Shown: positions 6,789 to 37,379 of the stretch, piece after piece | Numbering within the stretch: the stretch's first letter is position 1 | Layout: each line of letters begins with the position of its first letter | Origin: Mesohalobacter salilacus | GTDB lineage: Bacteria; Bacteroidota; Bacteroidia; Flavobacteriales; Flavobacteriaceae | Direction: 5' to 3' | DNA: 45,959 bases | Assembly (NCBI GenBank): GCA_003931895.1 | Contig: RRZV01000029.1 | Coordinates: 1 to 45,959 of the forward strand | Program-made: the position numbers and the translations under genes | The notes under the pieces: model-generated | Databases searched by the model: none | Seen by the model: only the letters and a program-made list of their open reading frames with translations | Told to the model about the DNA's origin: nothing

Positions 6789-8216
6789 TTATTTTAACCA
6801 ATCTTTTGCAAAATCACAGGTTTTGTAGTCTTCACTTATTTTGATGTAAGTGTCTTTCATTTTGCTTTTTTGCCATTTCTGGATTTCTCGTACTTTTTTT
6901 TGTTTTAATGCTAAATCACTTATACGAGCGTAATCTTTATTGAAGTTTGCTTCATGTTCTTCTAATCTTTTTGTAACGGTTAAGATTTTAAAAAAAGGTT
7001 GTTGCTGCTTATTAGATTCGGTATATACAGGCGAAACCTGACCTTCGTCAAGATTGATGATTTTGTTGTATAAATCAGGGTCCATTTTGCTCAATTCAAA
7101 GCGTTTGTCAAGTGTTGCGTCGTTAATGAGCTGGCCTCCACTTTCTTTGGTTTCTTCTTCATCTGAAAATTCTTTGGCAGCTTCTTCAAAACTAATTTCG
7201 CCATCAACTATTCTCGTGCGTAGGGTCTGAATTTCTTTCTGTGCTTTTTCAATAGCTTCATCAGTGATTTCTGGAAATTTAAGAATGTGTCTAACATCAA
7301 TAAATTGCCCGCGAATTTTTTCTACTAAGAGAATATGCCAACCAAATTCTGTTTTAAAGGGTTTACTGATTTCACCTTCTTCAAGACTAAAAGCAGTGTC
7401 TTTAAATTCTTTAACTAAAGGAGAATCTCTACTTACATCTGATATTCTTCCTCCCTCACGTCTTGAGCGACGATCATCAGAATATAAAACAGCGCGTGAA
7501 GAAAATCGAGCGCCGTCTAATACTTCTTGTCTTATTTTATTTAAAAAATCTAAAGTTTTTTGGGTTTGTTCTTCTGTAACCTCAGGTTCAATAACAATTT
7601 GAGAAACTTCTACCTGGGTCCCAAAAAAGGGTTTTTCATCTTCAGGAATTTTGTCAAAAAATTGTCTTACCTCAGCTGGTGTAACTTCTATTTCCTCTAC
7701 AACACTGCCTTGCATTTCTTGAGCTAAAACGGTTTCAAAGTTGATATCAAACAATTCTTTCTTTAACTCTTCTTCAGTGTCTTTGCCGTAAAAGTCTAAT
7801 ATTTTTTGGAGACTTCCGGCTTGGTTTACCATATATTGGAGCTGTTGCTCTGTACGGCTATTGACCATTTCCTCTTGAATTTCTATACTATCTTGAATAG
7901 CGTGATGGGCAAAAAGCTTGTTTTCCATAATTTGCTTTAGGATAAAACACTTGCTAGTTTCTTCGCCTGAAAAGCCTTGTGCTTTTTGGTCTTCTTGTGC
8001 TTTAGCAATGTCGCTTTCTAAAATGAGATATTCCCCAACAACCGCTGCTATACCATCTACTTTTACGCGCTGATTGTCAAGATTATCTACGACTAATTTT
8101 GATTCTTTTTTGTCGTCTTTTATAAGATTGTCTTTTTCGTCAATGGTTATTTGAGACCAAGACCAATTAACGATAAATAAGGCTGATAGTAGGGTTAAGT
8201 TATTTAAATATTTCAT
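6789..8216 (-). CDS. Periplasmic peptidyl-prolyl isomerase, SurA-like
   Basis: Predicted periplasmic chaperone and parvulin for outer-membrane protein folding. A signal peptide (MKYLNNLTLLSALFIVNWSWSQ) is followed by a SurA N-terminal-like segment (VDGIAAVVGEYLILESDI) and two PpiC/rotamase domains, roughly residues 195-300 and 305-415; each ends in the usual FGWHIL-type or GG(Q)L signature. The ATG at 8216 gives about 475 aa and a proper signal peptide; the start at 8240 would add eight residues. The start overlaps the preceding lipoprotein gene by 17 bp. Confidence 0.88.
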   Translation of the reverse strand: MKYLNNLTLLSALFIVNWSWSQITIDEKDNLIKDDKKESKLVVDNLDNQRVKVDGIAAVVGEYLILESDIAKAQEDQKAQGFSGEETSKCFILKQIMENKLFAHHAIQDSIEIQEEMVNSRTEQQLQYMVNQAGSLQKILDFYGKDTEEELKKELFDINFETVLAQEMQGSVVEEIEVTPAEVRQFFDKIPEDEKPFFGTQVEVSQIVIEPEVTEEQTQKTLDFLNKIRQEVLDGARFSSRAVLYSDDRRSRREGGRISDVSRDSPLVKEFKDTAFSLEEGEISKPFKTEFGWHILLVEKIRGQFIDVRHILKFPEITDEAIEKAQKEIQTLRTRIVDGEISFEEAAKEFSDEEETKESGGQLINDATLDKRFELSKMDPDLYNKIINLDEGQVSPVYTESNKQQQPFFKILTVTKRLEEHEANFNKDYARISDLALKQKKVREIQKWQKSKMKDTYIKISEDYKTCDFAKDWLK

Positions 8217-9054
8217 AATCATTATTTTTGATGGCATCATTTAAAATCTGCTGTTCCAGTTTTTTTTTCAATTCCAACTTTTGTTTGTTTTTTAAAATTT
8301 GTTCAATAGTAGGTTTAATATAGCTTTTTGGTGCTAAAGAATTGGGTTTTAATACATCTTTAACATAGATAAAATAGGTATTTAAGCTATCTACAATTTC
8401 TATATATCGATTCTTATTTAAAAGTTTTTGGTGTTGTTCGGGACTTAAATTGTTTAAATTTTTAAAAACATCAATTGACTTTACCCATATAGAATCGTTT
8501 AATTTGACTTTATCAAATTTAAGCTGTTCTGCGTTGAGATAATCTTTATCCTCTTGATTAAAACGCTTAAAGTTTTCCTTTATTTTTGGGTAGTCTTTTA
8601 AATTATTTTTCACCAAAACATACCTTAATTTCAATAAATGTTCATTGACTTTAAACACTTCTTTATTAGCTTGATAATAATTATCGATGGTGGTACTATC
8701 AATAATACTATCTATTTGCTTTTGTATTAGCGCATCCATATAAGCTTTTTTGTAAAGCTCAGATTTGTACTGCTCAACCATTGCTTGATACCGTTCTTGT
8801 TCTTTGACAGGTAAATTAAACTTGGCTTTGTCTAAAAGAATTTTATCCATTGCCCATTGATCAATAAAAGTTTTCGCAAATATCATGCTGTCTTCTTTTG
8901 AAATATTTTGAGGTAATTCTCGAATAAGATCAGATTTATATAAAATATGAGAATTAACTTGTGCTATAGCATTTTCAGGCTTTTGTTTTTTAAACAGTTC
9001 ACAACTACTAAGTAGAACTAAACTAACTGTTATATAAAGGATTTTGGTTTTCAA
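8200..9054 (-). CDS. SurA-like chaperone lipoprotein without isomerase domain
   Basis: A 284-aa lipoprotein with lipobox LSSC (Cys18). After the signal, the segment AIAQVNSHILYKSDLIRELP resembles the SurA/PrsA N-terminal chaperone domain, followed by long Lys/Glu-rich helices. None of the conserved parvulin blocks (such as GGxLG or FGYHLI) can be seen, so it looks like a holdase without prolyl isomerase activity. The start is TTG at 9054, because no ATG fits the signal peptide. It lies 4 bp after the large isomerase gene and overlaps the next one, so the three are cotranslated. Confidence 0.75.
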   Translation of the reverse strand: MKTKILYITVSLVLLSSCELFKKQKPENAIAQVNSHILYKSDLIRELPQNISKEDSMIFAKTFIDQWAMDKILLDKAKFNLPVKEQERYQAMVEQYKSELYKKAYMDALIQKQIDSIIDSTTIDNYYQANKEVFKVNEHLLKLRYVLVKNNLKDYPKIKENFKRFNQEDKDYLNAEQLKFDKVKLNDSIWVKSIDVFKNLNNLSPEQHQKLLNKNRYIEIVDSLNTYFIYVKDVLKPNSLAPKSYIKPTIEQILKNKQKLELKKKLEQQILNDAIKNNDYEIFK

Positions 9055-9058
9055 AGGC

Positions 9059-11017
9059 TTAGTGTTCTATAGATTGAATTAACTTTTGGTTAATTACAAT
9101 ATCGTATTTTTCTTTCAGTTTAGCAATCCATTCTTCTTCTCTTACTTTTTGAAGATTACTAATAACTTGACCTCTAACTTCTTCAAATTTTAAGGGTTTT
9201 GACGGATGAACTTTTGAAATATCTAAAACAACATATTGGTTGTTATGTTGGTATAACTCTGGTTTGTTAGTTTGTAAATCAATATTTGAAGGTAAACTCG
9301 TATCATTAATTTCTGTTTCATTTAAAGTTTTAAAAATAGCATTAGGAAATTGCTTTCTTAAAACATTTATAGGGTCATCATCTATTTTACGTTTTATTTT
9401 TTTGGCTTCTTTTTTTGTAGAACTTGAAGCTAATAAAGCATTTATTTTTGTTGGGCTTACAAAATTACTTTTATGCGTTTCAAAATATTTTTTCTGGGCT
9501 AAAGAGTCTTCTTTTGTAGGATTCCAAATGTTTTGTTCCATAACTTCAAATAGCAAAAGCCCTTCGTAATAAGTTTTTATTTCGGCAGCAAATTCTGGAG
9601 AAACTTGCTCTAAATTTTGATTGTGAACCTCTATTAATTTAGCGTAGGAAAATTTATCTATGGCGGTGTTAATCTTTTGATTTAATGTGTTTTCTGTTAA
9701 ACTTCGCTGTTGCTTTTCAATGTATTCTAAAAATTGATTTAAGTTATATTCTCTACTATCAATTTTTAAAATCCATTCATTTTTATCGGCTTCTTTTTCC
9801 TTGTATCGCCATTTGAATTTTAGAATACTTTCATCTATTCTGTCTTCTAATGCTGAAAGCAATTCGTAATTAATATTGACTTCGTATTGATTCATCAAGT
9901 CTCTTTTGATGTTTTCAATCAACTTTTTAGACCGGTCTGAAGTTTTAATTTTTTTGACGATGTCTGTTTTTATTTCCTCTAAAGGCTTAACAGGAATTTC
10001 ATCAATATACTTAATAATATGCCAGCCAAATTTGGTTTTAAAAGGTTTTGAAATAGGATTGTTTTTGTCTAAAGAAAATGCAACTTCTTCAAATTTAGCT
10101 GAATTGAGTTGGCCAACGCCAAATGCTGATAATTTGCCGCCATTAGAAGCGGTAGGTTTATGGTCTGAAAATTGCTTAGCTAAATCTGCAAATTTTTCAC
10201 CATTTTGAAGTTTTTGATAAATCTTTTGAATTTCGGCTTTGGCATTATAAGTGCTGTCTTGTGATTGCAAATTCTTCATAATATGTGCCACTTCAAGACT
10301 TCCTCGCGACGGACGTTCATCATTTTTTTTGATAAGATGGTAACCAAATTGCGTTCTTACAGGTTGCGAAACTTCATTGACCTCAATATTATATACTGCA
10401 GTTTCAAAGGGATAAACCATCTTGTAAGCTTTGAACCAACCTAAACTACCTTTATTGATTTTTGCAGATGGGTCTTTAGAATATTTTAAAGCTAAGTCTT
10501 CAAATGACTCGCCATTTTCTATTTTCTTAAGCACGTCAATGGCAGTGTTATAGGCTTTGAGTGTATCTTCAGGCGTTGCATTTGGTTTAAGACTGATCAA
10601 AATATGACTGGCATTGACCTCGTTTGTCATTCTATGATATGTTTCTTGGACTAATTGCTCAGTCACTTTACCATTAGAAATATATTTGTCCGCCAACTGT
10701 TTGCGGTAACGTCCATATTCATTTAAAAATTTGGGCAAAGTATCTAAGCCTTTGTCTTTGGCAGCAACAACTTTTAACTTAAAACGCAAATACATTTCAG
10801 CGTATTCTTCTATACCCAATTTGTCATTCTCAAAATTGTTTTGTGAATTTTTTTGATATTGGTTTAAAAATTCGGTTTTGTAAACCTTAGTGTCATTGAT
10901 ACTAAAAACAAGACTGTCGCTAAGATTGGTTTGAGCTATAGAATAGGTAAAACTTCCCAAAATCAATATTGTGAATAGAAACATCGATTTTAAATTGAAA
11001 GCCACTTTAAGTTTCAT
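9059..11017 (-). CDS. Large peptidyl-prolyl isomerase with two rotamase domains
   Basis: A 652-aa exported protein (signal peptide about residues 1-29) and first gene of the operon. Two PpiC-type domains follow a SurA-like N-terminal chaperone segment. The first spans roughly residues 130-230 (ASHILISL to FGYHLIKK) and the second about 240-345 (VAHIMKNL to FGWHIIKYID). A long C-terminal part (about 350-652) is predicted helical and has no recognised domain. Expected role: outer-membrane or secreted protein folding. A TAAATTTG box on the minus strand at 11047-11040 is a likely promoter. Confidence 0.88.
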   Translation of the reverse strand: MKLKVAFNLKSMFLFTILILGSFTYSIAQTNLSDSLVFSINDTKVYKTEFLNQYQKNSQNNFENDKLGIEEYAEMYLRFKLKVVAAKDKGLDTLPKFLNEYGRYRKQLADKYISNGKVTEQLVQETYHRMTNEVNASHILISLKPNATPEDTLKAYNTAIDVLKKIENGESFEDLALKYSKDPSAKINKGSLGWFKAYKMVYPFETAVYNIEVNEVSQPVRTQFGYHLIKKNDERPSRGSLEVAHIMKNLQSQDSTYNAKAEIQKIYQKLQNGEKFADLAKQFSDHKPTASNGGKLSAFGVGQLNSAKFEEVAFSLDKNNPISKPFKTKFGWHIIKYIDEIPVKPLEEIKTDIVKKIKTSDRSKKLIENIKRDLMNQYEVNINYELLSALEDRIDESILKFKWRYKEKEADKNEWILKIDSREYNLNQFLEYIEKQQRSLTENTLNQKINTAIDKFSYAKLIEVHNQNLEQVSPEFAAEIKTYYEGLLLFEVMEQNIWNPTKEDSLAQKKYFETHKSNFVSPTKINALLASSSTKKEAKKIKRKIDDDPINVLRKQFPNAIFKTLNETEINDTSLPSNIDLQTNKPELYQHNNQYVVLDISKVHPSKPLKFEEVRGQVISNLQKVREEEWIAKLKEKYDIVINQKLIQSIEH

Positions 11018-27001: not shown

Positions 27002-28942
27002 TTATCCGTTAAAAGTGCGTTTTTGCGCATTAACTTCTTTATTAATTAAATCTGAAAAATCGTTGATACTCATTTCTCCTAAATCTTCTCCACCATGTTT
27101 TCTAATCGAAACTGTTTGATTATCAACTTCATTCTCTCCAACAATGATCATAAAAGGAATTTTTTGGGTTTCCGCATCACGGATTTTTTTACCCATTGTT
27201 TCACTTCTGTTATCAATGCGGGCGCGAATTTCGTGTTTTTTAAGCAAATTTAAAACTTTTTTAGAATAATTTTCATATTTCTCACTGATTGATAATATGA
27301 TAGCTTGCTCATTGGTTAACCACAGTGGAAAGTTACCTGCAGTGTGCTCCAATAAAATAGCTATAAAGCGTTCCATACTGCCAAATGGAGCACGATGAAT
27401 CATCACAGGTCTATGTGTCTCGTTATCAGAGCCTTTATAAGTTAAATTAAAGCGTTCTGGTAGGTTGTAATCGACTTGTATCGTACCGAGTTGCCATTCA
27501 CGCTGCAATGCATCTTTGACCATAAAGTCTAATTTTGGACCATAAAATGCAGCTTCTCCGGTTTCTACGTGATAATTGAGATTTTTGTCTTTTGCGGCTT
27601 TAAGGATGGCGTCTTCAGCTTTTTGCCAATTATCTTCAGAACCAATGTATTTTTCTTTATTATCAGGATCTCTTAGAGAGACTTGTGCTGTAAAATTTTC
27701 AAATCCAAGAGAACCAAAGACGTAGAGTACAAGATCAATTACTTTTTTAAATTCTTCATCAAGTTGATCAGGTGTACAGAAAATATGGGCATCGTCTTGA
27801 GTAAATCCTCTAACCCTTGTTAAGCCGTGAAGCTCGCCACTTTGTTCATAGCGGTAAACCGTGCCAAATTCGGCATAGCGTTTAGGTAAATCTTTATAAC
27901 TCCACGCTGCTGAATTGTATATTTCGCAGTGGTGGGGGCAATTCATAGGTTTTAGAAGAAACTCTTCATCGTCTTTTGGGGTTTTTATAGGCTGAAAACT
28001 ATCTTCACCATATTTTTCATAGTGTCCAGAAGTGACATATAAATCTTTATGACCAATATGTGGGGAGATGACTTGCTCGTAACCTGCTATTTGTTGGGCA
28101 TCTTTTAGAAAATTTTCAAGGCGTTCACGAAGTGCTGCTCCTTTTGGTAGCCAAAGTGGCAAACCTTGACCAACTTTTTGTGAAAATGTAAATAACTCAA
28201 GAGCTTTACCAAGTTTTCTGTGGTCTCTTTTTTTGGCTTCTTCCAACATATCAAGATACTCTTTAAGCATCTTTTGCTTAGGAAAAGCGATACCGTAAAC
28301 CCGTGTGAGTTGAGGATTGGTTTCATCGCCTCGCCAATACGCACCAGCAGCACTCAGAAGTTTAACCGCTTTAATGAATCCCGTATGTGGAATATGACCG
28401 CCACGACATAAGTCGGTGAAATCGTCGTGGTCACAAAAGGTAATTTCGCCGTCTTCCAGATTTTCAATGAGTTCAGTTTTAAACGGATTAGATTTATAAT
28501 AGTCTAAAGCGGCTTGTTTTGAAACTTCTCTGAGTTTAAACTCGTGTTTTTGCCGAGCAATTTCAAGTATGGTTTTTTCAATTTTGGGAAAATCTTTTTC
28601 AGAAATACTCTCTTCGCCAAAATCTATATCGTAATAAAAGCCTTGATCAATGGCTGGACCAATAGTCAGTTTGGCATTTGGGTAAAATTTTAATATCGCT
28701 TGTGCCATCAAGTGTGCAGCAGAATGCCAAAGGGCTTTTTTACCTTCTTTATCATTAAAAGTATAAAGCACTAATTTTCCGTCTTCATTTAAAGGTGTTG
28801 AGGCTTCAACGGTTTTACCATTATACGACGCTGAAACTACATTTCTTGCCAGTCCGTGGCTTATACTTTGAGCGACATCAAAAGGCGTTGAACTGCGCTC
28901 CACTTGTTTTACGCTACCATCTGGTAATGTGATATTGATCAT
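27002..28942 (-). CDS. thrS: Threonyl-tRNA synthetase
   Basis: Class II synthetase charging tRNA-Thr. Domain order is TGS ([13 protein letters not shown]), the editing domain with [12 protein letters not shown] and GGHIPHTG, the catalytic core ([38 protein letters not shown]) and the anticodon-binding domain. I choose the ATG at 28942 (646 aa), where the TGS domain begins, over 28963. A TATCTTTG box on the minus strand at 28968-28961 implies a very short leader and supports this start. Confidence 0.95.
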
Positions 28943-29098
28943 GAATCCAAAAATTTTAGGCAAAGATAATCAAGTGATGAGTTTTGGTTGGATTTGGGGT
29001 AGGAAATTTTGAATTATAAATTTTAAATGATTCTAAGTTTTTTTAAAACTTTAAAAATAATTATGCTATTATGACAATGATTTATTGCTACATTTTCA

Positions 29099-29168
29099 CA
29101 TTACCAAATCATCACATTACCCCATTACCAAATCATCACATTACCCCATTACCAAATTACCACATTAA
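29099..29168. repeat. 24-bp tandem repeat, CATTACCAAATCATCACATTACCC
   Basis: Two identical units of 24 bp (29099-29122, 29123-29146) and a diverged third that runs into the stop codon of the regulator gene at 29165. A related stretch, AAATTGCCACATTAC, occurs at 35516-35530 ahead of the HlyD-type gene, at the other end of the peptide locus. Confidence 0.75.
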
Positions 29169-29506
29169 TCTTCTTCAAGTTTCTTAATCCTTGCTTCCAG
29201 CATTTCAATATATTTTTGCTGTGAATCGAGTAATGCTTTAGGAACGGTGTAAACTTTTTGAGTGCCGTGGTTTATACCAATAGATTGATCTTTACAATCT
29301 ATATGGTAACGGGCGTCATGCTCATAAATTTCATCTAAATGCACTTCTAGAATATCCGCCAATTTCATCCATTCATCAGGTTTGATGTGAGAGATGCCTT
29401 TTTCTCGGCGATTATAACTCGATACATTCATACAGAGGTAATCTGCTAACTGTTGCTGAGAAAAGCCTTTTTGTTTTCGGGTGGTAATGAGTTTTGTTTT
29501 TTACAT
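29165..29506 (-). pseudogene. Xre-type HTH regulator with stop at codon 2
   Basis: Reading from the ATG at 29506, the second codon is TAA; the frame then runs on as KTKLITTRKQKGFSQQQLAD, DYLCMNVSSYNRREKG and a C-terminal coiled coil to 29165. The HTH is complete only if translation begins before residue 25, since the internal ATG at 29431 lies inside the recognition region. A single base change from AAA would give the TAA. It could be a recent pseudogene, a non-AUG start, or a sequence error. It is divergent from the VKOR gene and so is its likely regulator. Confidence 0.65.
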
Positions 29507-29520
29507 GGCAAGTAATTATT

Positions 29521-29550
29521 GCGTAAATATGCAAATATAATTGCAAAATA
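29521..29550. promoter_or_regulatory. Phased GCAAATAT-type repeats in the divergent promoter
   Basis: GCGTAAATAT, GCAAATATAA and TTGCAAAATA follow each other at about 10-bp spacing, one per helical turn. They overlap a TATATTTG box on the minus strand (29539-29532) serving the HTH gene. They are candidate operators for that regulator. Confidence 0.4.
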
Positions 29551-29590
29551 AAAAATTAGATATTTTAAAGACAACTCATAATTTAGTAGC

Positions 29591-31171
29591 ATGTCTTTTT
29601 CGTCTCATATATTACATGAATTTGTAGAGCTCAACAAATACGATGTTAGTTTTGCTGAAATAAATCGTTTACTGAAAAGCGATATTAGCGATGGTATGCA
29701 GCCTATAACGAATACTTTAGACTTATTAGATATTCCTAATTTAGCTATTGAGTTGCCTAAAAGTTCTTTCAACCAATTGCCAAATTGCTTTATTGCCCAA
29801 GTCAAACAAGATGAGAAATACAATTTCGTTCTAGTATGCAAAGCAAAGGATGATAATAATGTTGAAATTAATTATGGTGACAATGAAAAAAATTCAAAAG
29901 CAATAGATGAATTCTTAGAACATTGGACAGGAAAGGCTATAGTTGCCGAAGAAAATAAAAATCTTAAAAAACCCTCTTTAGAAGGAAAAGACTTTTATAA
30001 AGTGACATTAATTGTTGGAATTGTTTTATTACTATCATATTTGTTCAGGGTTTATAATGACCTTACAATTTTAATTTATGCCATTTTTTCATTCATTGGT
30101 TTTGGTTTGAGTTTGCTTATTTTAAAAGAAAAATATGGCAACATTGGCCAACCCTCACAATACTGCTCTATAAATAATAATACCAGTTGTAACGCTGTGT
30201 TAAACTCTAAATACGCTAAACTTTTTAACACTGTTGATTTGAGTGATGTAACAGTAGTTTACTTTGCTTTTATAACACTGGGGCTTTTTTCAGGAGCTTT
30301 AAATGTATTACACTTATCCTTTTCTGTTCTTTCAATACCAATTATAATTTACTCTGTTTACTTTCAATATTTTAAAATACAAAAATGGTGTCCCTTGTGT
30401 TTAGGAATTGCATTTGTATTAGTAGCTCAATCTGTTTTATTGGGTATTGATTACACTAAATCTTTGAGCATGAACACCTCTCAGTTTTTATACCATTTCA
30501 GTCTCCTTGCAGTGATTTTGGTAGCTTGGTTTCATATCAAAACATTATTAAAAACGTATTCAAAGTACGAAGGCTTGATGATTGAAAATTTGAAATTTAG
30601 AAGAAATCATAAGTTATTTGTGCCATTTTACGATAGTCTAAAACCAATTGAGAGTGAAATTGACCAAAAATTTACTATTTGCCTAGGCAATAAAAATACT
30701 GCAAATACCATTACAATAATTACGAATCCCTTTTGTCAATTTTGTAAGAAAGCACATAAAACTTATATGGAATTATTAAACGAACATCAAAATGACATAC
30801 AATTTAAAGTTGTGTTTTTATTGACCGAAAGAAATCCTAATAAAATTAAAGTTTTTGTTTTAAAAAATCTCGTAGGTATTTATAAAGAACAAGGTGAATT
30901 AGGTTTTGCTAAAGCATTGAACGATTGGTTTGAAAGTAGAAACCCAAAACAATGGCTTGAGAGGTGGGAAGTGAATACAAAAAATACTGAACTAATATTG
31001 AAAGAACATATCAAATGGTGTAATATCAATAACATACTTAAAACACCAAGTATTTTGCTCAATGGAAAATTATTTCCTGAGTCTTACCATATCACCGATA
31101 TTAAACATTTTATAGAACCAATTTTTTATAAACATACAGAATATAACAATACACTTGCAAGTAAGACGTAG
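29591..31171 (+). CDS. C39-like / VKOR / thioredoxin-fold fusion, disulfide-forming membrane protein
   Basis: 526 aa. Residues 1-125 resemble the C39 peptidase fold (ending EFLEHWTGKAIVAEE) but lack the catalytic Cys and His, so this is a dead, probably leader-binding domain. Residues 135-320 form a VKOR-type membrane domain with Cys192/Cys200 and the active-site WCPLC (Cys267, Cys270). Residues 360-526 are a thioredoxin/DsbA-like domain with FCQFC (Cys382, Cys385) and a cis-Pro (TP at 485-486). It should oxidise cysteines in exported proteins. The precursor with four cysteines is encoded 51 bp downstream. Confidence 0.85.
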   Translation: MSFSSHILHEFVELNKYDVSFAEINRLLKSDISDGMQPITNTLDLLDIPNLAIELPKSSFNQLPNCFIAQVKQDEKYNFVLVCKAKDDNNVEINYGDNEKNSKAIDEFLEHWTGKAIVAEENKNLKKPSLEGKDFYKVTLIVGIVLLLSYLFRVYNDLTILIYAIFSFIGFGLSLLILKEKYGNIGQPSQYCSINNNTSCNAVLNSKYAKLFNTVDLSDVTVVYFAFITLGLFSGALNVLHLSFSVLSIPIIIYSVYFQYFKIQKWCPLCLGIAFVLVAQSVLLGIDYTKSLSMNTSQFLYHFSLLAVILVAWFHIKTLLKTYSKYEGLMIENLKFRRNHKLFVPFYDSLKPIESEIDQKFTICLGNKNTANTITIITNPFCQFCKKAHKTYMELLNEHQNDIQFKVVFLLTERNPNKIKVFVLKNLVGIYKEQGELGFAKALNDWFESRNPKQWLERWEVNTKNTELILKEHIKWCNINNILKTPSILLNGKLFPESYHITDIKHFIEPIFYKHTEYNNTLASKT

Positions 31172-31222
31172 TCCTAAGCGTCTCTAATGGTTTAGGAATA
31201 AATTAATTAAATACTTTAAATT

Positions 31223-31498
31223 ATGTTAAACAACATTTTAAATCAGGAAGGTGTTGTTGTTTTAGACAAAAAGCAACAAGCAAAAGTAAACGGTGGTGAA
31301 AAATGCGCCTATGTTTCTGGTTGGAGTCCAAGTGATGCCATGGATAACGGTCAATTTTTTGAAAACGATGGCCCAGGTTCAAACACCTATAATGGCGGTA
31401 ATACTGCACTAACTTGTAAAATTAGATGCAGACCGTCATTTTTAGGTATTGGATTAGGTAGTTGGGGTGATGTTCAGGATGTTCCCTGTAGACCTTAA
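31223..31498 (+). CDS. Double-glycine-leader peptide precursor, four cysteines
   Basis: 91 aa. Residues 1-25 form a leader ending KKQQAKVNGG, the double-Gly type that C39 peptidases cut. The 66-aa core is rich in Gly, Asn and Ser, with Cys28, Cys65, Cys69 and Cys89, so two disulfides are possible. It contains Trp34 and Trp81 and ends in VPCRP. I know no characterised bacteriocin with this core. Context (disulfide enzyme upstream, C39 exporter and adaptor downstream) makes a secreted peptide, antimicrobial or signal, the best reading; activity is unknown. Confidence 0.8.
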   Translation: MLNNILNQEGVVVLDKKQQAKVNGGEKCAYVSGWSPSDAMDNGQFFENDGPGSNTYNGGNTALTCKIRCRPSFLGIGLGSWGDVQDVPCRP

Positions 31499-31510
31499 GT
31501 ATGAAAAATA

Positions 31511-31542
31511 AAGAAGCTATCTTTATATAAAGGTAGCTTCTT
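31511..31542 (+). terminator. Hairpin directly after the precursor gene
   Basis: A 14-bp stem (AAGAAGCTA, one G-T pair, CTTT / AAAG, TAGCTTCTT) with a 4-nt loop, 12 bp past the precursor stop. Only a short T stretch lies in its right arm (CTTCTT), so it may be a partial terminator that lets some transcription reach the exporter, or a 3' stabiliser of the precursor message. Confidence 0.6.
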
Positions 31543-31555
31543 AAACAAATTGATT

Positions 31556-32461
31556 ATGAAAATAATATATCTAATTATTTTTTTATTTTCTGTGAGCATT
31601 TCTGCTCAAAGTAGCATAAAAATAAGCCTATTTTCTAAAAAAGATTCAACTTTTATTGAAAATGCTTTTATTTATAAAGATAATAACTTAGTGTCATATT
31701 CAGATAAAAAAGGTGTGTTTAAAATAAAAAATACTGACTTTAAAAGCATCACTATTAATCACCTTAGTTTTAAAAGCATTTCTTTAAATAGAAAAGATGT
31801 ATATAATAACAAAAAAATTTATCTCATTGAAAAAAATGAAGCCTTAGATGAAGTAACTATCAATAGTAAAGAAGTTAAAACGGATTTGATTTTACCTAAA
31901 CAATCACTTTGGTCTAAAATAAGTTATAATATAGGACATAAAGCGAATACAAATTCAATTTGTGCAACTTATATTCCCTTTGACAACAAATACAAACACT
32001 CAATTATTAAAAATATTTTGATCGAAACTAGTAAAGGCTACTGGGGTGACCCTAATAAGCAATACATGCCATTTTTAATCAATCTTTACTCAGTAGATTC
32101 CGTTAGTAAACTCCCTAATAAGCAATTGATAACAGATTCAATTTTAGTTTCTAAAAATAAAAATGACAAGAGTAAATATGTAACATATAATGTTGAAAAA
32201 TATTATATAGATTTTCCAGAAGATGGAATTTTTGTTGCGGTTAAAACCCTAAACAAATATCAATACAGAGAATATAGTGATATAAGTAATGAAGCTCCAG
32301 CTTTTAAAGTCATAGATAAATCCAAAAGATCTAAAAGTGTTACTTATTGTAAACATTACCATATAGATGGCACAATTGAAAAAGATTGGATTGATAAAGA
32401 TATACCATTGTTAGGTTTTATTTACAATTTTGGTATAGAAGTAGAATATTATGAAAACTAA
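31556..32461 (+). CDS. Exported protein with carboxypeptidase-regulatory-like domain
   Basis: About 301 aa from the ATG at 31556; a TTG two codons earlier is less likely. A signal peptide (MKIIYLIIFLFSVSISAQS) is followed by a beta-sandwich domain of the CarboxypepD_reg-like type to about residue 100 (the FIENAFIYKDNNLVSYSDKKG pattern), ending in LDEVTI. The rest (about 110-301) is beta-rich and unrecognised, with the segment YIDFPEDGIFVAVKTLN. It stands between precursor and exporter, so a role in immunity, anchoring or maturation is possible but unsupported. Confidence 0.65.
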   Translation: MKIIYLIIFLFSVSISAQSSIKISLFSKKDSTFIENAFIYKDNNLVSYSDKKGVFKIKNTDFKSITINHLSFKSISLNRKDVYNNKKIYLIEKNEALDEVTINSKEVKTDLILPKQSLWSKISYNIGHKANTNSICATYIPFDNKYKHSIIKNILIETSKGYWGDPNKQYMPFLINLYSVDSVSKLPNKQLITDSILVSKNKNDKSKYVTYNVEKYYIDFPEDGIFVAVKTLNKYQYREYSDISNEAPAFKVIDKSKRSKSVTYCKHYHIDGTIEKDWIDKDIPLLGFIYNFGIEVEYYEN

Positions 32462-32510
32462 AATTTAATTGAATTTTCTTTAATATTAGTTTAATCTTTA
32501 CATTAAATAT

Positions 32511-34787
32511 TTGGTTAATTTTCCTCATTACAATCAACCCGACGCCAAAGACTGCGGCCCAACCTGTTTAAAAATAATTTCAAAGCACTTTGGTAAAAAC
32601 ATTCCATTACAACAGCTCCGCAACCTCACCCAAACCACAAGAAGTGGGAGTAGTCTCTTAAACCTCAGTGAAGCTTTTGAGGACATTGGTTTTAGAACCT
32701 TAGGAGTCAAATTAAGTCTTTCTAGATTACTTGACGCACCTTTGCCTTGTATTGTGCATTGGAACAAAAATCATTATGTAGTTTTATATAAATGCCCATC
32801 TTCCGTCTCCCCTGCTTCGACTTCGCTCAGCACAAGAAAGGGAAGAAACTTATTAAAATCCCCCTTTGGGGGAATTAAAGGGGGCTTTTATGTAAGTGAT
32901 CCAGCCCATGGCTTGTTAAAATACACTCAAGAAGAATTCTTAAAACATTGGATAGGCAACAACGCCACAGCAGAAACCGAAGAAGGAGTTGCCTTACTTA
33001 TAGAACCCACAGCGAAGTTCTATGACACCGAATTTAAAACGGAAGCTGAGCGGAGCCAAAGCTTTGGTTTTAAGTTTCTTTCAAAATACATTTTTAGATA
33101 TAAGCAGTTTCTTTGGCAATTGGTCATCGGGTTAATCGCCTCGAGTTTACTTCAACTTATTTTTCCATTCTTAACCCAAAGTGTTGTCGATGTTGGGATT
33201 AAAAACCAGGATATTCATTTTATTTATTTGATTCTATTTGCGCAGTTAGCCTTGTTTATAGGCAGAACATCTATTGAAGTCATCCGCAGTTGGATTTTGT
33301 TGCATTTGAGCACACGTATCAATATTTCGTTAGTCTCAGATTTTTTTATCAAACTCATGAAGTTGCCCATCGCCTTTTTTGATACGCGTATGACGGGAGA
33401 TATTTTACAACGTATCAATGACCATAGACGTATAGAACGTATTTTAACGACTTCGTCTTTAAACGTGTTGTTTTCTATGGTCAATTTAGTGGTGTTTAGC
33501 ATTGTTTTGGCGTATTATAGTTTGTTGCTGTTTGGTATTTTTATGTTAGGCAGTGTGTTGTATTTTTTATGGATTGTCATTTTTCTAAAAAAACGTCGTG
33601 ATTTAGATTATAAACGTTTTTCAGAAGTCAGCCAAGAGCAAAGCAAAGTGATTGAGCTCATCAACGGCATGCAGGAAATCAAACTCCACAACGCCGAGAA
33701 ACAAAAACGCTGGTCTTGGGAGTTTGTGCAAGCCCGACTGTTTAAAGTGTCTATTGAGGGTTTAGCGCTTGAGCAATACCAAAGTGTAGGTTCAGGGTTT
33801 ATCAATGAAGTTAAAAATATTTTAATCACCGTATTGTCTGCTAAGCTGGTGATAGACGGCGAAATCACCTTAGGGATGATGCTCGCTGTGAGTTATATCG
33901 TCGGTCAACTCAACTCGCCAATAGCACAACTTATTAATTTTATACGAGAAGTTCAGGATGCTAAAATTTCATTAGATCGTCTTTCTGAAATTCATAATAA
34001 AGAAGACGAAGAGACACCTGGGCAACAAAAAATCAGTGATATTCCGCCGTCCAGTGCAATGAGTTTAAATCAAGTGTCTTTTAGATACATTGGCTCTGAT
34101 GAAATGGTCTTAAAAGAATTAGATTTGGTCATACCTGCCAATAAAGTGACGGCAATTGTCGGGGTAAGTGGTAGTGGTAAAACCACCTTGATGAAACTTT
34201 TACTTAAATTTTACGACCCGATTGAAGGCACAATTGAACTTGGAAAACTCAATATGAAAAATGTCTCTCAAACCACTTGGCGTGACGAATGTGGTGTGGT
34301 GATGCAGGAAGGCTATATTTTTAATGATAGTATAGCGAGCAATATTGCCGTTGGCGAAGATTATATTGATAAGCAGAAGTTAGCCCATGCTGTAGATGTT
34401 GCCAACATCAAAGATTTTATTGAGAGCTTACCGCTGTCTTACAATACCAAAATTGGTATGGAAGGCGTGGGCATTAGCACCGGACAAAAGCAACGTTTGC
34501 TTATTGCCAGAGCCGTTTACAAAAATCCTAATTTTTTGTTTTTCGATGAAGCTACATCTGCGTTAGATGCCAATAACGAAAAAATCATCATGGAAAAGTT
34601 AGACGAATTTTTTGAAAACAAAACCGTAGTCGTTATAGCCCATCGTTTAAGCACTGTAAAAAATGCCCATCAAATCGTGGTTTTAGATCAAGGTAAAATT
34701 GTTGAAGTTGGTAGCCATATAGCATTGATAAAGCAAAAAGGGAATTATTATAATTTGGTGAAAAATCAATTGGAGTTGGGGAGTTAA
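32511..34787 (+). CDS. Peptidase-containing ABC exporter (C39 type)
   Basis: 758 aa. The N-terminal C39 peptidase has Gln9, catalytic Cys15 (KDCGPTC), His88 (NHYVVL) and Asp130 (VSDPAHG). A membrane domain follows (about 190-480), then an ATPase with Walker A GVSGSGKTT (551-559), signature GISTGQKQR and Walker B FLFFDEATSALD, then AHRLSTV. It should cut the double-Gly leader and export the core. The start is TTG: the family N-terminus (NFPHYNQPDAKDCGPTC) begins right there and the frame is closed upstream. Residues 95-125 are an in-frame repeat insertion between the active-site His and Asp. Confidence 0.93.
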   Translation: MVNFPHYNQPDAKDCGPTCLKIISKHFGKNIPLQQLRNLTQTTRSGSSLLNLSEAFEDIGFRTLGVKLSLSRLLDAPLPCIVHWNKNHYVVLYKCPSSVSPASTSLSTRKGRNLLKSPFGGIKGGFYVSDPAHGLLKYTQEEFLKHWIGNNATAETEEGVALLIEPTAKFYDTEFKTEAERSQSFGFKFLSKYIFRYKQFLWQLVIGLIASSLLQLIFPFLTQSVVDVGIKNQDIHFIYLILFAQLALFIGRTSIEVIRSWILLHLSTRINISLVSDFFIKLMKLPIAFFDTRMTGDILQRINDHRRIERILTTSSLNVLFSMVNLVVFSIVLAYYSLLLFGIFMLGSVLYFLWIVIFLKKRRDLDYKRFSEVSQEQSKVIELINGMQEIKLHNAEKQKRWSWEFVQARLFKVSIEGLALEQYQSVGSGFINEVKNILITVLSAKLVIDGEITLGMMLAVSYIVGQLNSPIAQLINFIREVQDAKISLDRLSEIHNKEDEETPGQQKISDIPPSSAMSLNQVSFRYIGSDEMVLKELDLVIPANKVTAIVGVSGSGKTTLMKLLLKFYDPIEGTIELGKLNMKNVSQTTWRDECGVVMQEGYIFNDSIASNIAVGEDYIDKQKLAHAVDVANIKDFIESLPLSYNTKIGMEGVGISTGQKQRLLIARAVYKNPNFLFFDEATSALDANNEKIIMEKLDEFFENKTVVVIAHRLSTVKNAHQIVVLDQGKIVEVGSHIALIKQKGNYYNLVKNQLELGS
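32793..32885. repeat. In-frame palindromic repeat inside the exporter gene
   Basis: 93 bp (31 codons) unlike its surroundings. The first part contains CTTCGACTTCGCTCAGC, and the second has AAAATCCCCCTTT / AAAGGGGGCTTTT hairpin arms with one mismatch. Both look like flavobacterial intergenic repeats. The reading frame is kept. They separate strands that normally join directly (VVLYK to FYVSDPAHG). Confidence 0.75.
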
Positions 34788-34888
34788 TGAGGAAATTTAA
34801 TTATTTAGTTTGGAAGAATGCTCAATAGAACGATGAATGAAAATTACAGCTTTTATATAACCGAAAGAATTACTTAAATTTACAGAAA

Positions 34889-34904
34889 TATTTAATATTA
34901 AATA
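34889..34904. promoter_or_regulatory. Palindromic operator candidate of the second TA pair
   Basis: TATTTAATATTAAATA is a perfect 16-bp palindrome ending 2 bp before the antitoxin ATG. Symmetric AT-rich runs can arise by chance, so this is tentative. Confidence 0.4.
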
Positions 34905-34906
34905 AA

Positions 34907-35125
34907 ATGGAAGCTTTAGAATTTAAATCAAAAATTGAAAATAATAAAATACAAATCCCTAAACATGTAAAGTCTAAACTTCTTTTTAATCAATACAAAA
35001 ACGTAAGGATAATTGTTCTTTTAGAAGATGGTGATGATGTTGAAGAAAAAGGGTTTAAACATATGGCTAGCGAGGCATTTTTTGAAGGCTACGCTCTTTC
35101 AGATTCTGTTTATGATGATGATTAA
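34907..35125 (+). CDS. Antitoxin-like partner of the PemK-type toxin
   Basis: 72 aa. The N-terminal part (FKSKIENNKIQIPKHVK) is reminiscent of an AbrB-like or related DNA-binding strand pattern, and the C-terminal tail is acidic (SDSVYDDD). It lies 18 bp ahead of the toxin gene. The pairing is from context and size; the family is not firmly recognised. Confidence 0.6.
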   Translation: MEALEFKSKIENNKIQIPKHVKSKLLFNQYKNVRIIVLLEDGDDVEEKGFKHMASEAFFEGYALSDSVYDDD

Positions 35126-35143
35126 TCGAAAATCAATACGCTC

Positions 35144-35464
35144 ATGAAAAATTTTGATTTAGGCGACATTGTTTTAATTAAATTTCCTTTTACAGGTCAA
35201 CAAAATTTTAAAAAAAGACCTGCATTAGTTTTGAAAGATTTTGGTGATGATATTATAGTTTGTAGAATTACATCTAAAATATACCATTCAGATTATGACA
35301 TACTCATAGAGGACTGGGAAGCCTCTCAACTTAAACTAAAATCTGTAGTTCGTGTCCATAAAATTGCAACTTTAGAAAAAACTATGGTAGATAAAGTATT
35401 GAAACCCGTAAATGCCGGCATAAAAGCCAAGATCAGAGAAAATTTTATAAAACTAATTGAGTAA
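35144..35464 (+). CDS. PemK/MazF-family toxin
   Basis: 106 aa. The opening FDLGDIVLIKFPFTGQQNFKKRPALVL is the family start, with the Arg-Pro of the RPALVL block. The segment SVVRVHKIATLEKTMV corresponds to the later conserved region. It is more diverged from the MazF at 11884-12207 than expected for a recent duplicate. It sits between the exporter and its adaptor, so the pair was probably inserted into a working operon, or it stabilises the locus. Confidence 0.78.
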   Translation: MKNFDLGDIVLIKFPFTGQQNFKKRPALVLKDFGDDIIVCRITSKIYHSDYDILIEDWEASQLKLKSVVRVHKIATLEKTMVDKVLKPVNAGIKAKIRENFIKLIE

Positions 35465-35531
35465 AGTTAAACATTGGTCAGTTATATATCTTATTCACAG
35501 CTTATCCTATTAGCAAATTGCCACATTACTA

Positions 35532-36833
35532 ATGCCCGATAACACCAGCATAAAACATATCGACTTAAGAAGCGAGGAAGTTCAAGACATTCTGACAAAA
35601 GTCCCACATTGGATGATACGATGGGGCAATGTTTTGTTTTTGTCGCTAATCCTCCTGATTTTATTGCTATCATGGTTTGTGAAATATCCAGACATTATTG
35701 CTTCTGAAGCCATAGTGACGACTAAACTGCCACCACAAAAACTCATAGCGAGAACAACAGCTAAACTTGATACTATTGTAGTCAGTGATAATCAAAAAGT
35801 AAATGATAATCAACTTTTAGCAGTTTTGGAAAATCCTGCAAATTATAAGGATGTTTTAGATTTGAAAAAGATTTTAGGTGAGATACATTTAGATAAAGAC
35901 AGTATTTATTTTCCCATAGATAGAATCCCGGCTATCTTCAATCTTGGTGAAGTGGAAAATGCTTATGTGCAATTTGAAAATGCCTATATTGAATATGAAG
36001 TCAATCAGCAATTAAAACCTTATTCTTATCAAGTTCAAGCTGGCAATTTCACCATTCGGGAACTTGAAACTAGACTTAGAAACCTTTATGCACAATTTGA
36101 TTTAAAACGAAAAGAATTAAAACTTGCTAGAAATGACTTGAAGAGAAATGAAACACTATTTAACAAAGGTGTCATTTCTGCGCAAGAATTTGAAAACAAG
36201 CAATTGATGTTTGCTCAAGCCGAAAGAGATTTTAAAAATTTTCAAACCACACTATCACAAACCAAACAGGCCATCAGTGATGCTAAAAACAATTTAAAAG
36301 GCACCGAAATAGGTCGGATTAAAGACAACAAAATCTTGTTTAGACAAGTAGTTCAAGCTTATAATCAATTGAACTCCAGTATTAAGAATTGGGAGTTTAG
36401 ATTTGTCTTTCGTTCAAATCTTGACGGGAAAGTTAGTTTTTTAAACATTTGGCACAAATCTCAAAATATCAATCAAGGCGATATGGTTTTTACTGTTATT
36501 CCTGATAACTATCAAAACTATGTCGCTCGATTAAAAACGCCAATTCAAAATTCAGGTAAAATAAAAAAGGGACAACCTGTAAATTTAAAACTCAACAACT
36601 ATCCCGACCAAGAATACGGCGTTTTAAAAGGTAAAGTCAATAATATTTCACTTATTCCTGACCAAGAAGGTTTTTACAATATAGAAGTAGATTTACCAGA
36701 AAAGCTGAAAACGACATACGATAAAACTTTAGAGTTTAAACAAGAAATGACAGGCATAGCAGAAATCATCACCGAAGATTTACGATTGATAGAACGGTTT
36801 TTCTATCAGTTTAGAGAACTAGTGAATAGGTGA
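35532..36833 (+). CDS. HlyD-family membrane-fusion protein
   Basis: 433 aa with one membrane helix (about residues 32-50), a biotinyl-lipoyl-like half (KLDTIVVSDNQKVNDNQLLAVLENP), a central coiled-coil region (about 150-270) and a C-terminal half beginning LDGKVSFLNIWHKSQNINQGD. It would link the C39 exporter to an outer-membrane channel for one-step export. No TolC-like gene lies in the locus, so a shared one is expected elsewhere. Confidence 0.88.
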   Translation: MPDNTSIKHIDLRSEEVQDILTKVPHWMIRWGNVLFLSLILLILLLSWFVKYPDIIASEAIVTTKLPPQKLIARTTAKLDTIVVSDNQKVNDNQLLAVLENPANYKDVLDLKKILGEIHLDKDSIYFPIDRIPAIFNLGEVENAYVQFENAYIEYEVNQQLKPYSYQVQAGNFTIRELETRLRNLYAQFDLKRKELKLARNDLKRNETLFNKGVISAQEFENKQLMFAQAERDFKNFQTTLSQTKQAISDAKNNLKGTEIGRIKDNKILFRQVVQAYNQLNSSIKNWEFRFVFRSNLDGKVSFLNIWHKSQNINQGDMVFTVIPDNYQNYVARLKTPIQNSGKIKKGQPVNLKLNNYPDQEYGVLKGKVNNISLIPDQEGFYNIEVDLPEKLKTTYDKTLEFKQEMTGIAEIITEDLRLIERFFYQFRELVNR

Positions 36834-36863
36834 TTTCAGCATCTAATTTTATTCTAACTCATA

Positions 36864-37379
36864 TTAGTTCTTAAACCAACTAGAATATTTCACATAATTT
36901 TCAGCAATTCTTTCAATTTCGCCTTGGGTTAATTCTGGGCTGATGTCTTTTATTTTTTTGGCAGGCACGCCAGCGTAAATACTCCCCGATTCTACTACTG
37001 TATTTTGAGTAAGCACAGCTCCAGCAGCGATGATACTATTTGAATGAATCACACAATTGTCCATCACAATACTGCCCATTCCAATCAATACATTATCATG
37101 AATCGTGCAACCGTGGACAATGGCATTGTGACCAATAGAAACCTTGTTGCCAATATTTGTTGGGTATTTTTGATAAGTGCAATGAATCACAGCACCATCT
37201 TGAACATTGACTTTGTCGCCCATTTTGATATAATGCACATCTCCTCGAATGACAGCATTAAACCAAATACTACATTGTTGTCCCATTGAAACTTCACCTA
37301 CAATAGTTGCATTTTCAGCGATATAACAATCTGATGGTATTTCAGGAGATTTGTTGTTTACGGGAAGAATTATGGGCAT
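36864..37379 (-). CDS. Gamma-carbonic-anhydrase-like hexapeptide protein
   Basis: 171 aa of left-handed beta-helix repeats. Three His zinc-ligand candidates occur in AVIHC, SIGHNAIVHGC and their neighbours. The C-terminal YAGVPAKKIKDIS is typical of the gamma-CA/YrdA group. It could be an anhydrase or a structural relative without activity; the sequence cannot decide. Confidence 0.85.
   Translation of the reverse strand: MPIILPVNNKSPEIPSDCYIAENATIVGEVSMGQQCSIWFNAVIRGDVHYIKMGDKVNVQDGAVIHCTYQKYPTNIGNKVSIGHNAIVHGCTIHDNVLIGMGSIVMDNCVIHSNSIIAAGAVLTQNTVVESGSIYAGVPAKKIKDISPELTQGEIERIAENYVKYSSWFKN

Follow-up and report, generated by a model that had tools for sequence, protein, structure and literature searches.

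The disulfide bonds of bacteriocins that leave the cell are usually assumed to arise outside the cytosol. A stretch of DNA of 45,959 nucleotides from the flavobacterium Mesohalobacter salilacus (contig RRZV01000029.1, assembly GCA_003931895.1; hereafter the window) raises the question of whether they can be made earlier, on a precursor peptide that still carries its leader. It contains an island in which a membrane protein combining a peptidase C39-like domain, a VKOR domain and a DsbA-like domain (hereafter the fusion) lies next to a double-Gly precursor peptide, a C39-containing ATP-binding cassette (ABC) exporter and an HlyD-type adaptor. The original prediction, made from the sequence alone, had described this block as a secreted cysteine-peptide locus with a dedicated disulfide machine, and had suggested that disulfides form before export. 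Our comparative analysis makes it probable that the island produces a secreted disulfide-bearing peptide, likely antibacterial, which would be oxidised by a cytosol-facing fusion before export.

The fusion family and its partner peptides

The window fusion is composed of a C39-like domain (residues ~1-125), six transmembrane (TM) helices with the VKOR cysteines Cys192/200 and Cys267/270, and a DsbA-like thioredoxin (Trx) domain with Cys382/385. It scores as a VKOR protein (PF07884, 66.1 bits against a cut-off of 27.5), with the loop Cys pair and the CXXC motif present. Pfam models find one VKOR in the genome of the window and no DsbB. An AlphaFold2 (AF2) model of the fusion, based on 48 sequences, has a mean pLDDT of 90.2 and a pTM of 0.79; in Foldseek its C-terminal part matches BdbD and other DsbA-like proteins, and its N-terminal part the peptidase domains of PCAT1 and ComA. 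A sequence search of the PDB with the fusion returned a thioredoxin at E 0.34 only, and a library of viral folds gave no match at E 0.001 or better.

Fusions were found at 54 places in the 299 genomes sampled from the family, in 40 genomes when the window's own is counted. After leaving out a short fragment (G277:C33), we aligned 53, including that of the window; three copies from G059 are 98-100% identical to each other, and no other pair exceeds 85%. A weak match in a genome contig (L002; query residues 49-81) was dropped, as no fusion-type open reading frame (ORF) is present there. Cys192, 200, 267, 270, 382 and 385 are invariant in all 53. A profile of the fusion also matches 54 of 395 genomes sampled across the phylum at 1e-10, a count that includes fragments and C39-less VKORs. 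Among plasmid records, 8 of 72,556 match. The six redox cysteines are kept in all ten full-length fusions picked from the phylum sample (nine of them from other families) and in all four fusions examined from named plasmid records. A seventh, Cys477 (window 31019-31021), is found in 43 of the 53; it belongs to a Trp-Cys motif that precedes the cis-Pro in the DsbA-like domain.

The N-terminal domain has a C39 fold and lacks the catalytic cysteine. The alignment column of the exporters' catalytic residue holds Cys in 0/53 fusions, and [DN]CG occurs within the first 60 residues of one fusion in 63 (at residue 48), whereas all 33 exporters aligned over more than 700 residues (window included) have DCG there. 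By the criterion of the catalytic Cys, the domain is not an active C39 peptidase. Fold and missing residue together are the marks of a C39-like domain (CLD), with substrate binding putative.

The precursor beside the window fusion has a leader resembling those that adjoin other fusions. Its leader, MLNNILNQEGVVVLDKKQQAKVNGG, is similar to that of locus L063, MLKNILELQGVQKMNKNEQKTINGG, while their cores are dissimilar. Val at -4 and Leu at -12 agree with the hydrophobic positions reported for LahT; position -7 is Gln, not Leu. The precursor adjoins a C39-containing ABC exporter, the arrangement of class II/PCAT systems; cleavage after GG and export are predicted. Its relatives by similarity are in L041 and L042 (25-31 residues, in the leader region), L063 (67 residues, 34%) and L135 (89 columns, 30%). 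The core had been expected to recur beside the fusion in other genomes; cores proved hypervariable, and what is conserved is the leader together with a Cys-rich, mostly even character.

This pairing was quantified with a fixed precursor pattern (leader ending in double-Gly or Gly-Ala, core of 11-129 aa). For 34 of the 53 fusions, a double-Gly ORF with two or more Cys lies on the same strand, -60 to +1000 bp downstream. As controls, the 51 non-window loci were searched on the opposite strand (-3500 to +5000 bp; 7 matches) and on the same strand between -9000 and -3500 bp (2 matches, both in L046 and both precursor-like). At least five of the 7 opposite-strand matches (L084, L088, two in L090, L091) have the appearance of true precursors in divergent orientation. 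Between -3500 and +5000 bp on the same strand there are 73 distinct cores; 71 have two or more Cys, and these come from 36 of 52 loci (the window plus L041-L091, some of whose fetched stretches end early). The Cys number is even in 60 of the 71 (binomial p 1.3e-9, uncorrected for kinship), and in 28/33 when one core is taken per locus (p 3.3e-5). Taken with the invariant redox cysteines and the loss of the C39 catalytic Cys, this recurrence is best explained, as originally proposed, by a disulfide-forming enzyme linked to an exported peptide with a leader.

In the phylum sample, a looser pattern finds a double-Gly ORF rich in Cys no more than 3 kb downstream of 6 of the 10 fusions. Aureibacter tunicatorum and Emticicia oligotrophica are among the named carriers. 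A plasmid record from Aureibacter carries the fusion with two 6-Cys double-Gly peptides, ABC and HlyD. In Emticicia the fusion is accompanied by a TlpA-family gene and a 6-Cys peptide whose leader is of Ala-Gly type, and there is a second fusion with another 6-Cys ORF. In a Parabacteroides record the fusion is accompanied by a 6-Cys peptide (Ala-Gly-type leader) and by LanC-family, glycosyltransferase-type and ABC genes; a second Parabacteroides copy of the fusion is split into two overlapping ORFs.

Two kinds of locus stand out. In L084, L088, L090 and L091, short divergent double-Gly peptides stand beside the fusion and DUF6734-type proteins; the cores in L084, L088 and L091 read CYPxYYCGAYYCANVNPxACCCP and form a separate subfamily. 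In the Parabacteroides distasonis record (L164:5896-11440), the fusion and its 6-Cys peptide share the stretch ahead of the exporter with a LanC-family gene and two genes of glycosyltransferase type, and the product may be a further modified peptide.

A close exporter relative is found within the fetched stretch in 35 of the 52 loci, and a close HlyD relative in 34. The gene order had been expected to recur in other Bacteroidetes. The pairing of fusion with precursor and, in most loci, exporter does recur; the full order of fusion, precursor, exported protein, ABC and HlyD is kept in L063 alone among the 51 other loci, where a TlpA-like gene and a second precursor are inserted.

Proposed maturation route and its rivals

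From the domain content of the fusion, its invariant cysteines, the loss of the catalytic Cys, the recurrence with Cys-rich precursors of mostly even parity, the charge pattern described below and the island itself, all of which are features of the sequences, we infer the following route. The double-Gly leader would dock on the catalytically dead C39-like domain; the fused DsbA-like domain would oxidise the core cysteines and pass electrons via the VKOR cysteines to membrane quinone. With the active side facing the cytosol, disulfides would form while the leader is still attached; the exporter's C39 domain would then cut the leader off, and the peptide would exit with the help of HlyD. The ribosomal peptide made in this way would carry disulfides and would most likely be antibacterial, of the class II/bacteroidetocin kind.

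The same maturation could instead serve a signalling or surface peptide, which we consider possible and somewhat unlikely; this alternative concerns the product only, and its likelihood overlaps with those of the others. It would fit with the exported beta-sandwich protein of the island being a surface or receptor-like partner, and with profile matches having recognised no immunity gene among the island's ORFs. However, the regions encoding bacteroidetocins, antibacterial peptides of Bacteroidetes, likewise have no obvious immunity gene according to the portion of PMC6671954 consulted, and the hypervariable Cys-rich cores, conserved leader and accessory island resemble bacteriocin loci.

Where oxidation takes place depends on the orientation of the fusion. 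The AF2 model has six TM-length helices; hydropathy backs TM1, TM2, TM4, TM5 and TM6 in all 53 fusions and TM3 in 52, and an automatic count at another threshold gave six in 40 fusions, five in 10 (the window among them) and seven in 3. A six-helix layout places the C39-like domain, the two VKOR Cys pairs and the DsbA-like domain on the same side of the membrane. The first 40 residues contain no strongly hydrophobic 19-mer in 52 of the 53, and the lone exception may be a start-site artefact. Lysine plus arginine (K+R) per residue is 0.11-0.23 in the loops on the Cys side versus 0.03-0.04 on the other side, and the raw K+R count is higher on the Cys side in 53/53, in loops that are also longer (~48 versus 27 residues). 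C39-less VKORs have the opposite pattern in 10/10 (0.00-0.04 on the Cys side versus 0.19-0.24); these controls are 10 of the 11 such hits of the phylum search, nine VKOR-Trx proteins and one lone VKOR, four of them from one genus. The inverted pattern is repeated in the ten further fusions and the four plasmid copies. By prediction, then, none of the 53 fusions has the layout of a canonical periplasm-facing VKOR-DsbA, as all have an additional N-terminal TM helix and reversed charges. Because of this charge pattern, the lack of a signal-like N-terminus and the need to meet the leader in the cytosol, we predict a cytosolic location for the active side, the reverse of what is found in canonical bacterial VKOR, and the disulfides would thus be formed on the leader-bearing precursor. 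The idea of oxidation before export thereby gains independent support from the predicted topology.

Characterised bacterial VKOR-DsbA systems generally work outside the cytosol, and if the fusion had their topology, its C39-like, VKOR and DsbA-like sites would all be periplasmic and the peptide would be oxidised during or after export. Exporters of the C39 type remove the leader on the cytosolic side, so that this arrangement would put an N-terminal domain of ~125 residues, with no signal-like stretch, in the periplasm and away from the leader it is thought to bind; it is also at odds with the charges of all 53 fusions, opposite to those of the ten C39-less VKORs. For these reasons we regard a periplasmic site as unlikely. 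The bacteroidetocin authors do propose oxidation by a thiol oxidoreductase of the locus, with no cytosolic placement in the text of PMC6671954 at hand. Fourteen ORFs from 10 of the 52 loci form one cluster, each with a CxxC; they are located either between the fusion and exporter genes or no more than 3 kb past the fusion, and the three that were scanned are Trx/TlpA-like.

Several observations weigh against oxidation by a cytosol-facing fusion. The TlpA/ResA-like oxidoreductases of these 10 loci are presumably periplasmic and would fit post-export handling of disulfides. Nineteen of the 53 fusions have no precursor of the strict pattern (two or more Cys) within 1 kb, 11 of the 71 cores have an odd Cys count, and 17 of the 52 loci have no close exporter relative in the fetched stretch. 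Co-variation between leader and C39-like domain, which docking might leave behind, showed no specificity (r 0.21, versus 0.23 for the VKOR-Trx part; partial r 0.05). The topology comes from hydropathy and the positive-inside rule, and its controls are only partly independent, four of the ten being from one genus. Finally, L133 (G038, 8026-9368) has a 4-Cys double-Gly peptide, an exporter piece and a relative of the exported protein, and L135 (G028, 7673-8852) a precursor-like peptide beside another such relative, and no fusion was found in either stretch or genome. Both genomes fall outside the set of 40 that carry a fusion, so Cys-containing double-Gly peptides can occur without it, and calling the machine dedicated was too strong for the family as a whole.

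It is very unlikely that the fusion is a redox partner of another modification (as a leader-guided reductant, isomerase or thiol-protecting enzyme, or in thioether or other Cys chemistry) and not the source of disulfides, since even Cys parity and the VKOR/DsbA-like architecture best fit oxidation and Pfam and other profile matches of the ORFs in the window island revealed no second maturase. Some fusion loci do have further genes of maturase type: L043 has grasp-with-spasm, Parabacteroides L164 an annotated LanC-family gene, and L084 and Emticicia L166 have DUF6734.

The island and its apparently exchangeable cassettes

The fusion is present in one of 27 genomes of the genus, that of the window. 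Alignment to the same-genus genome G683 (locus L139) sets the island borders: the window aligns up to 29013 and again from 36873, with ~36 bp between the two parts in G683, which thus has an empty site. GC content is 0.281-0.305 across 29-32 kb versus 0.365-0.385 in the two adjoining kilobases of thrS. Besides the fusion, precursor, exporter and adaptor, the island contains a helix-turn-helix (HTH) gene, an exported beta-sandwich protein and an antitoxin-like/PemK pair (Table 1). The fusion, the precursor with four Cys and a 66-aa core, the exported protein, the C39 exporter and the HlyD adaptor were all found where the original prediction had placed them. The block it took to be contiguous is a real island, with the antitoxin-like and PemK/MazF-like ORFs between ABC and HlyD left unmentioned.

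Table 1. Coordinates of the island, its genes and the flanking genes in the window.
Feature	Position	Strand	Evidence or remark
thrS	27002-28963	-	flanks the island on one side
Genomic island between thrS and gamma-carbonic-anhydrase-type gene	29014-36872	.	empty site in G683
HTH (XRE-type) regulator, 5'-truncated	29165-29431	-	PF01381 (HTH_3) match, positions 23-55 of 55 only
C39-like/VKOR/DsbA fusion	29591-31171	+	Pfam Peptidase_C39 3.4e-6, VKOR 4.6e-18, Thioredoxin_4 2.3e-5
Precursor peptide, 91 aa	31223-31498	+	25-aa double-Gly leader ending ...KVNGG; 66-aa core with 4 Cys
Exported beta-sandwich protein	31550-32461	+	hydrophobic N-terminus; CarbopepD_reg_2 weak, below cut-off
C39 peptidase-containing ABC exporter	32511-34787	+	Pfam; C39 domain with DCG motif
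Antitoxin-like ORF, 72 aa	34907-35125	+	weak match to RelN antitoxin domain, E 0.041
PemK/MazF-like toxin ORF	35144-35464	+	PF02452 2e-12
HlyD-type periplasmic adaptor	35532-36833	+	PF13437 1e-12; TIGR01843 2.8e-27, below its cut-off
gamma-carbonic-anhydrase-type gene	36864-37379	-	flanks the island on the other side; named by eye

A same-genus genome, G695 (L143, G695:C1:1738000-1757000), has an island at the same site. There, fusion, precursor and exported protein are replaced by a putative cassette of grasp-with-spasm type ahead of the exporter. It encodes three double-Gly peptides that contain no Cys, a protein of 373 aa, an ATP-grasp maturase (TIGR04192, 263.7 bits, over the cut-off of 230) and a SPASM-type protein (TIGR04193, 85.8 bits, below the cut-off of 175). 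From residue 350 to 758 the exporter is 96% identical to that of the window, and in its first 95 residues 82%; downstream follow the antitoxin-like/PemK pair (83% and 96%) and HlyD (93.5%). The G695 exporter gene is broken by a transposon-like insertion, which we take to be of IS66 type, and this copy is therefore probably inactive. In L043 (10006-12646), a fusion, ATP-grasp and SPASM-type maturases and a 2-Cys double-Gly peptide lie in one cluster, which by its gene content is a combination of two maturation chemistries. Given the same-site cassette of G695 and the mixed cluster of L043, it appears that a single export chassis can take different maturation cassettes, by exchange or in combination.

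More generally, we favour on balance the view that the fusion is an inverted VKOR-DsbA with a C39-derived leader-docking domain, which would act as a cytosolic oxidative maturase of the type known for ribosomally synthesised and post-translationally modified peptides (RiPPs). It would work before export on hypervariable Cys-rich cores still tethered to their leader, be interchangeable on a C39-ABC/HlyD chassis and alternate with grasp-with-spasm maturases at the same site.

A swap of the exporter's C39 domain was suspected, as this part is 82% alike between window and G695 and the rest 95-96%. It was not borne out: the C39 part diverges faster in most relatives, and that of G695 is still the closest. 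Separately, in G700 (L140:5028-7018) the gap between thrS and the carbonic-anhydrase gene is filled by unrelated ORFs, by eye a broken sensor histidine kinase, and the site thus takes different inserts.

The antitoxin-like and PemK ORFs (34907-35464), lying between the exporter and adaptor genes, are retained in L143 despite its other cassette, as if the pair stabilised the island. A divergent HTH regulator had been described and is present, as a gene without its 5' part. Its frame extends upstream (29432-29512, minus strand) to an ATG followed directly by TAA, with no further ATG, GTG or TTG between these and the truncated start, and a relative in L143 is intact (115 aa). As the frame is broken here and intact in the same genus, regulation of the island may be altered. 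No HTH relative was found in L041-L091 at E 1e-4, where the regulator would have recurred had it been a conserved part.

The AF2 model of the exported protein (pLDDT 82.5, pTM 0.61) is mostly beta. Its best PDB match by E-value in Foldseek is Cwp84 (2.1e-4, TM-score 0.33 on the query); its own first domain is similar to the N-terminal extension of SusC (9hfj, TM-score 0.72 on the target, E 0.017), and a second beta-rich domain follows. Among its six best relatives outside the window genome, those in L063, L133, L134 and L135 adjoin double-Gly peptide or exporter genes, and those in L136 and L137 do not.

Comparison with known systems

Within the literature searched, the C39-like/VKOR/DsbA fusion family, its inverted topology signature, its link to mostly even-Cys hypervariable precursors and the cassette exchange seem to be new. 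No description of such a fusion with double-Gly peptides was recognised among titles and the starts of abstracts, which for the broader queries were those at the top of the list, with most subscription journals outside the scope of the search. Queries for VKOR with peptidase C39 and for 'grasp-with-spasm' returned no paper. VKOR and thioredoxin go unmentioned in PMC10352776 and PMC8546649, and PMC4555120 contains none of the words fusion, C39, Bacteroidetes, inverted or peptidase. If the fusion does face the cytosol, one peptide would be oxidised in a reducing compartment through tethering to a quinone-linked enzyme, which would point to a portable catalyst of disulfide formation in the cytosol that works with a leader tag. 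Bacteria that lack a general Dsb system, as is stated of Bacteroides in the consulted part of PMC6671954, would also have a way to make disulfide-rich peptides. The fusion would further be a marker for hypervariable Cys-rich peptides, given the 71 distinct cores.

With the canonical bacterial VKOR-Trx/DsbA proteins, represented by the ten C39-less relatives, the fusion shares the VKOR Cys pairs, the CXXC motif and the Trx/DsbA domain; it differs in its additional N-terminal TM helix, its N-terminal C39-like domain and its reversed charges. The VKOR of Aeropyrum pernix reportedly gives disulfide formation in two subcellular compartments through VKOR membrane topology, as the title of Hibender et al. 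2017 has it; that protein is archaeal, whereas the fusion is found in Bacteroidota and tied to exported peptides. Thiol-disulfide oxidoreductases also occur in the double-Gly peptide clusters of sublancin and the glycocins, where BdbA and BdbB are separate, extracytoplasmic enzymes of Gram-positive bacteria that are not known to carry a C39-like domain, in contrast to the single fusion described here. Inactive C39-like domains of HlyB-type exporters recruit substrate (PMC6363468, in the part consulted). They share with the fusion a C39 fold without protease activity, which in our case is joined to a redox enzyme and not to an ABC exporter.

The closest parallel is with the bacteroidetocins, compared here by their description in PMC6671954. 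These are 4-Cys double-Gly peptides of Bacteroidetes, proposed as class IIf, whose loci encode a thiol oxidoreductase, a multi-TM protein and a C39-type ABC exporter. Disulfide formation by the oxidoreductase was already proposed for them: deletion of its gene attenuates activity, and reduced peptides migrate differently. Their four-gene loci have separate genes for a 5-TM protein and the oxidoreductase, a 15-aa leader and a 42-aa core, a layout that the window island does not share with bacteroidetocins A and B. It has instead one fusion with a C39-like domain, a 25-aa leader, a 66-aa core, HlyD, the exported protein and a toxin-antitoxin-like pair. By analogy of gene content, the bacteroidetocins are the nearest tested relatives of the window island.

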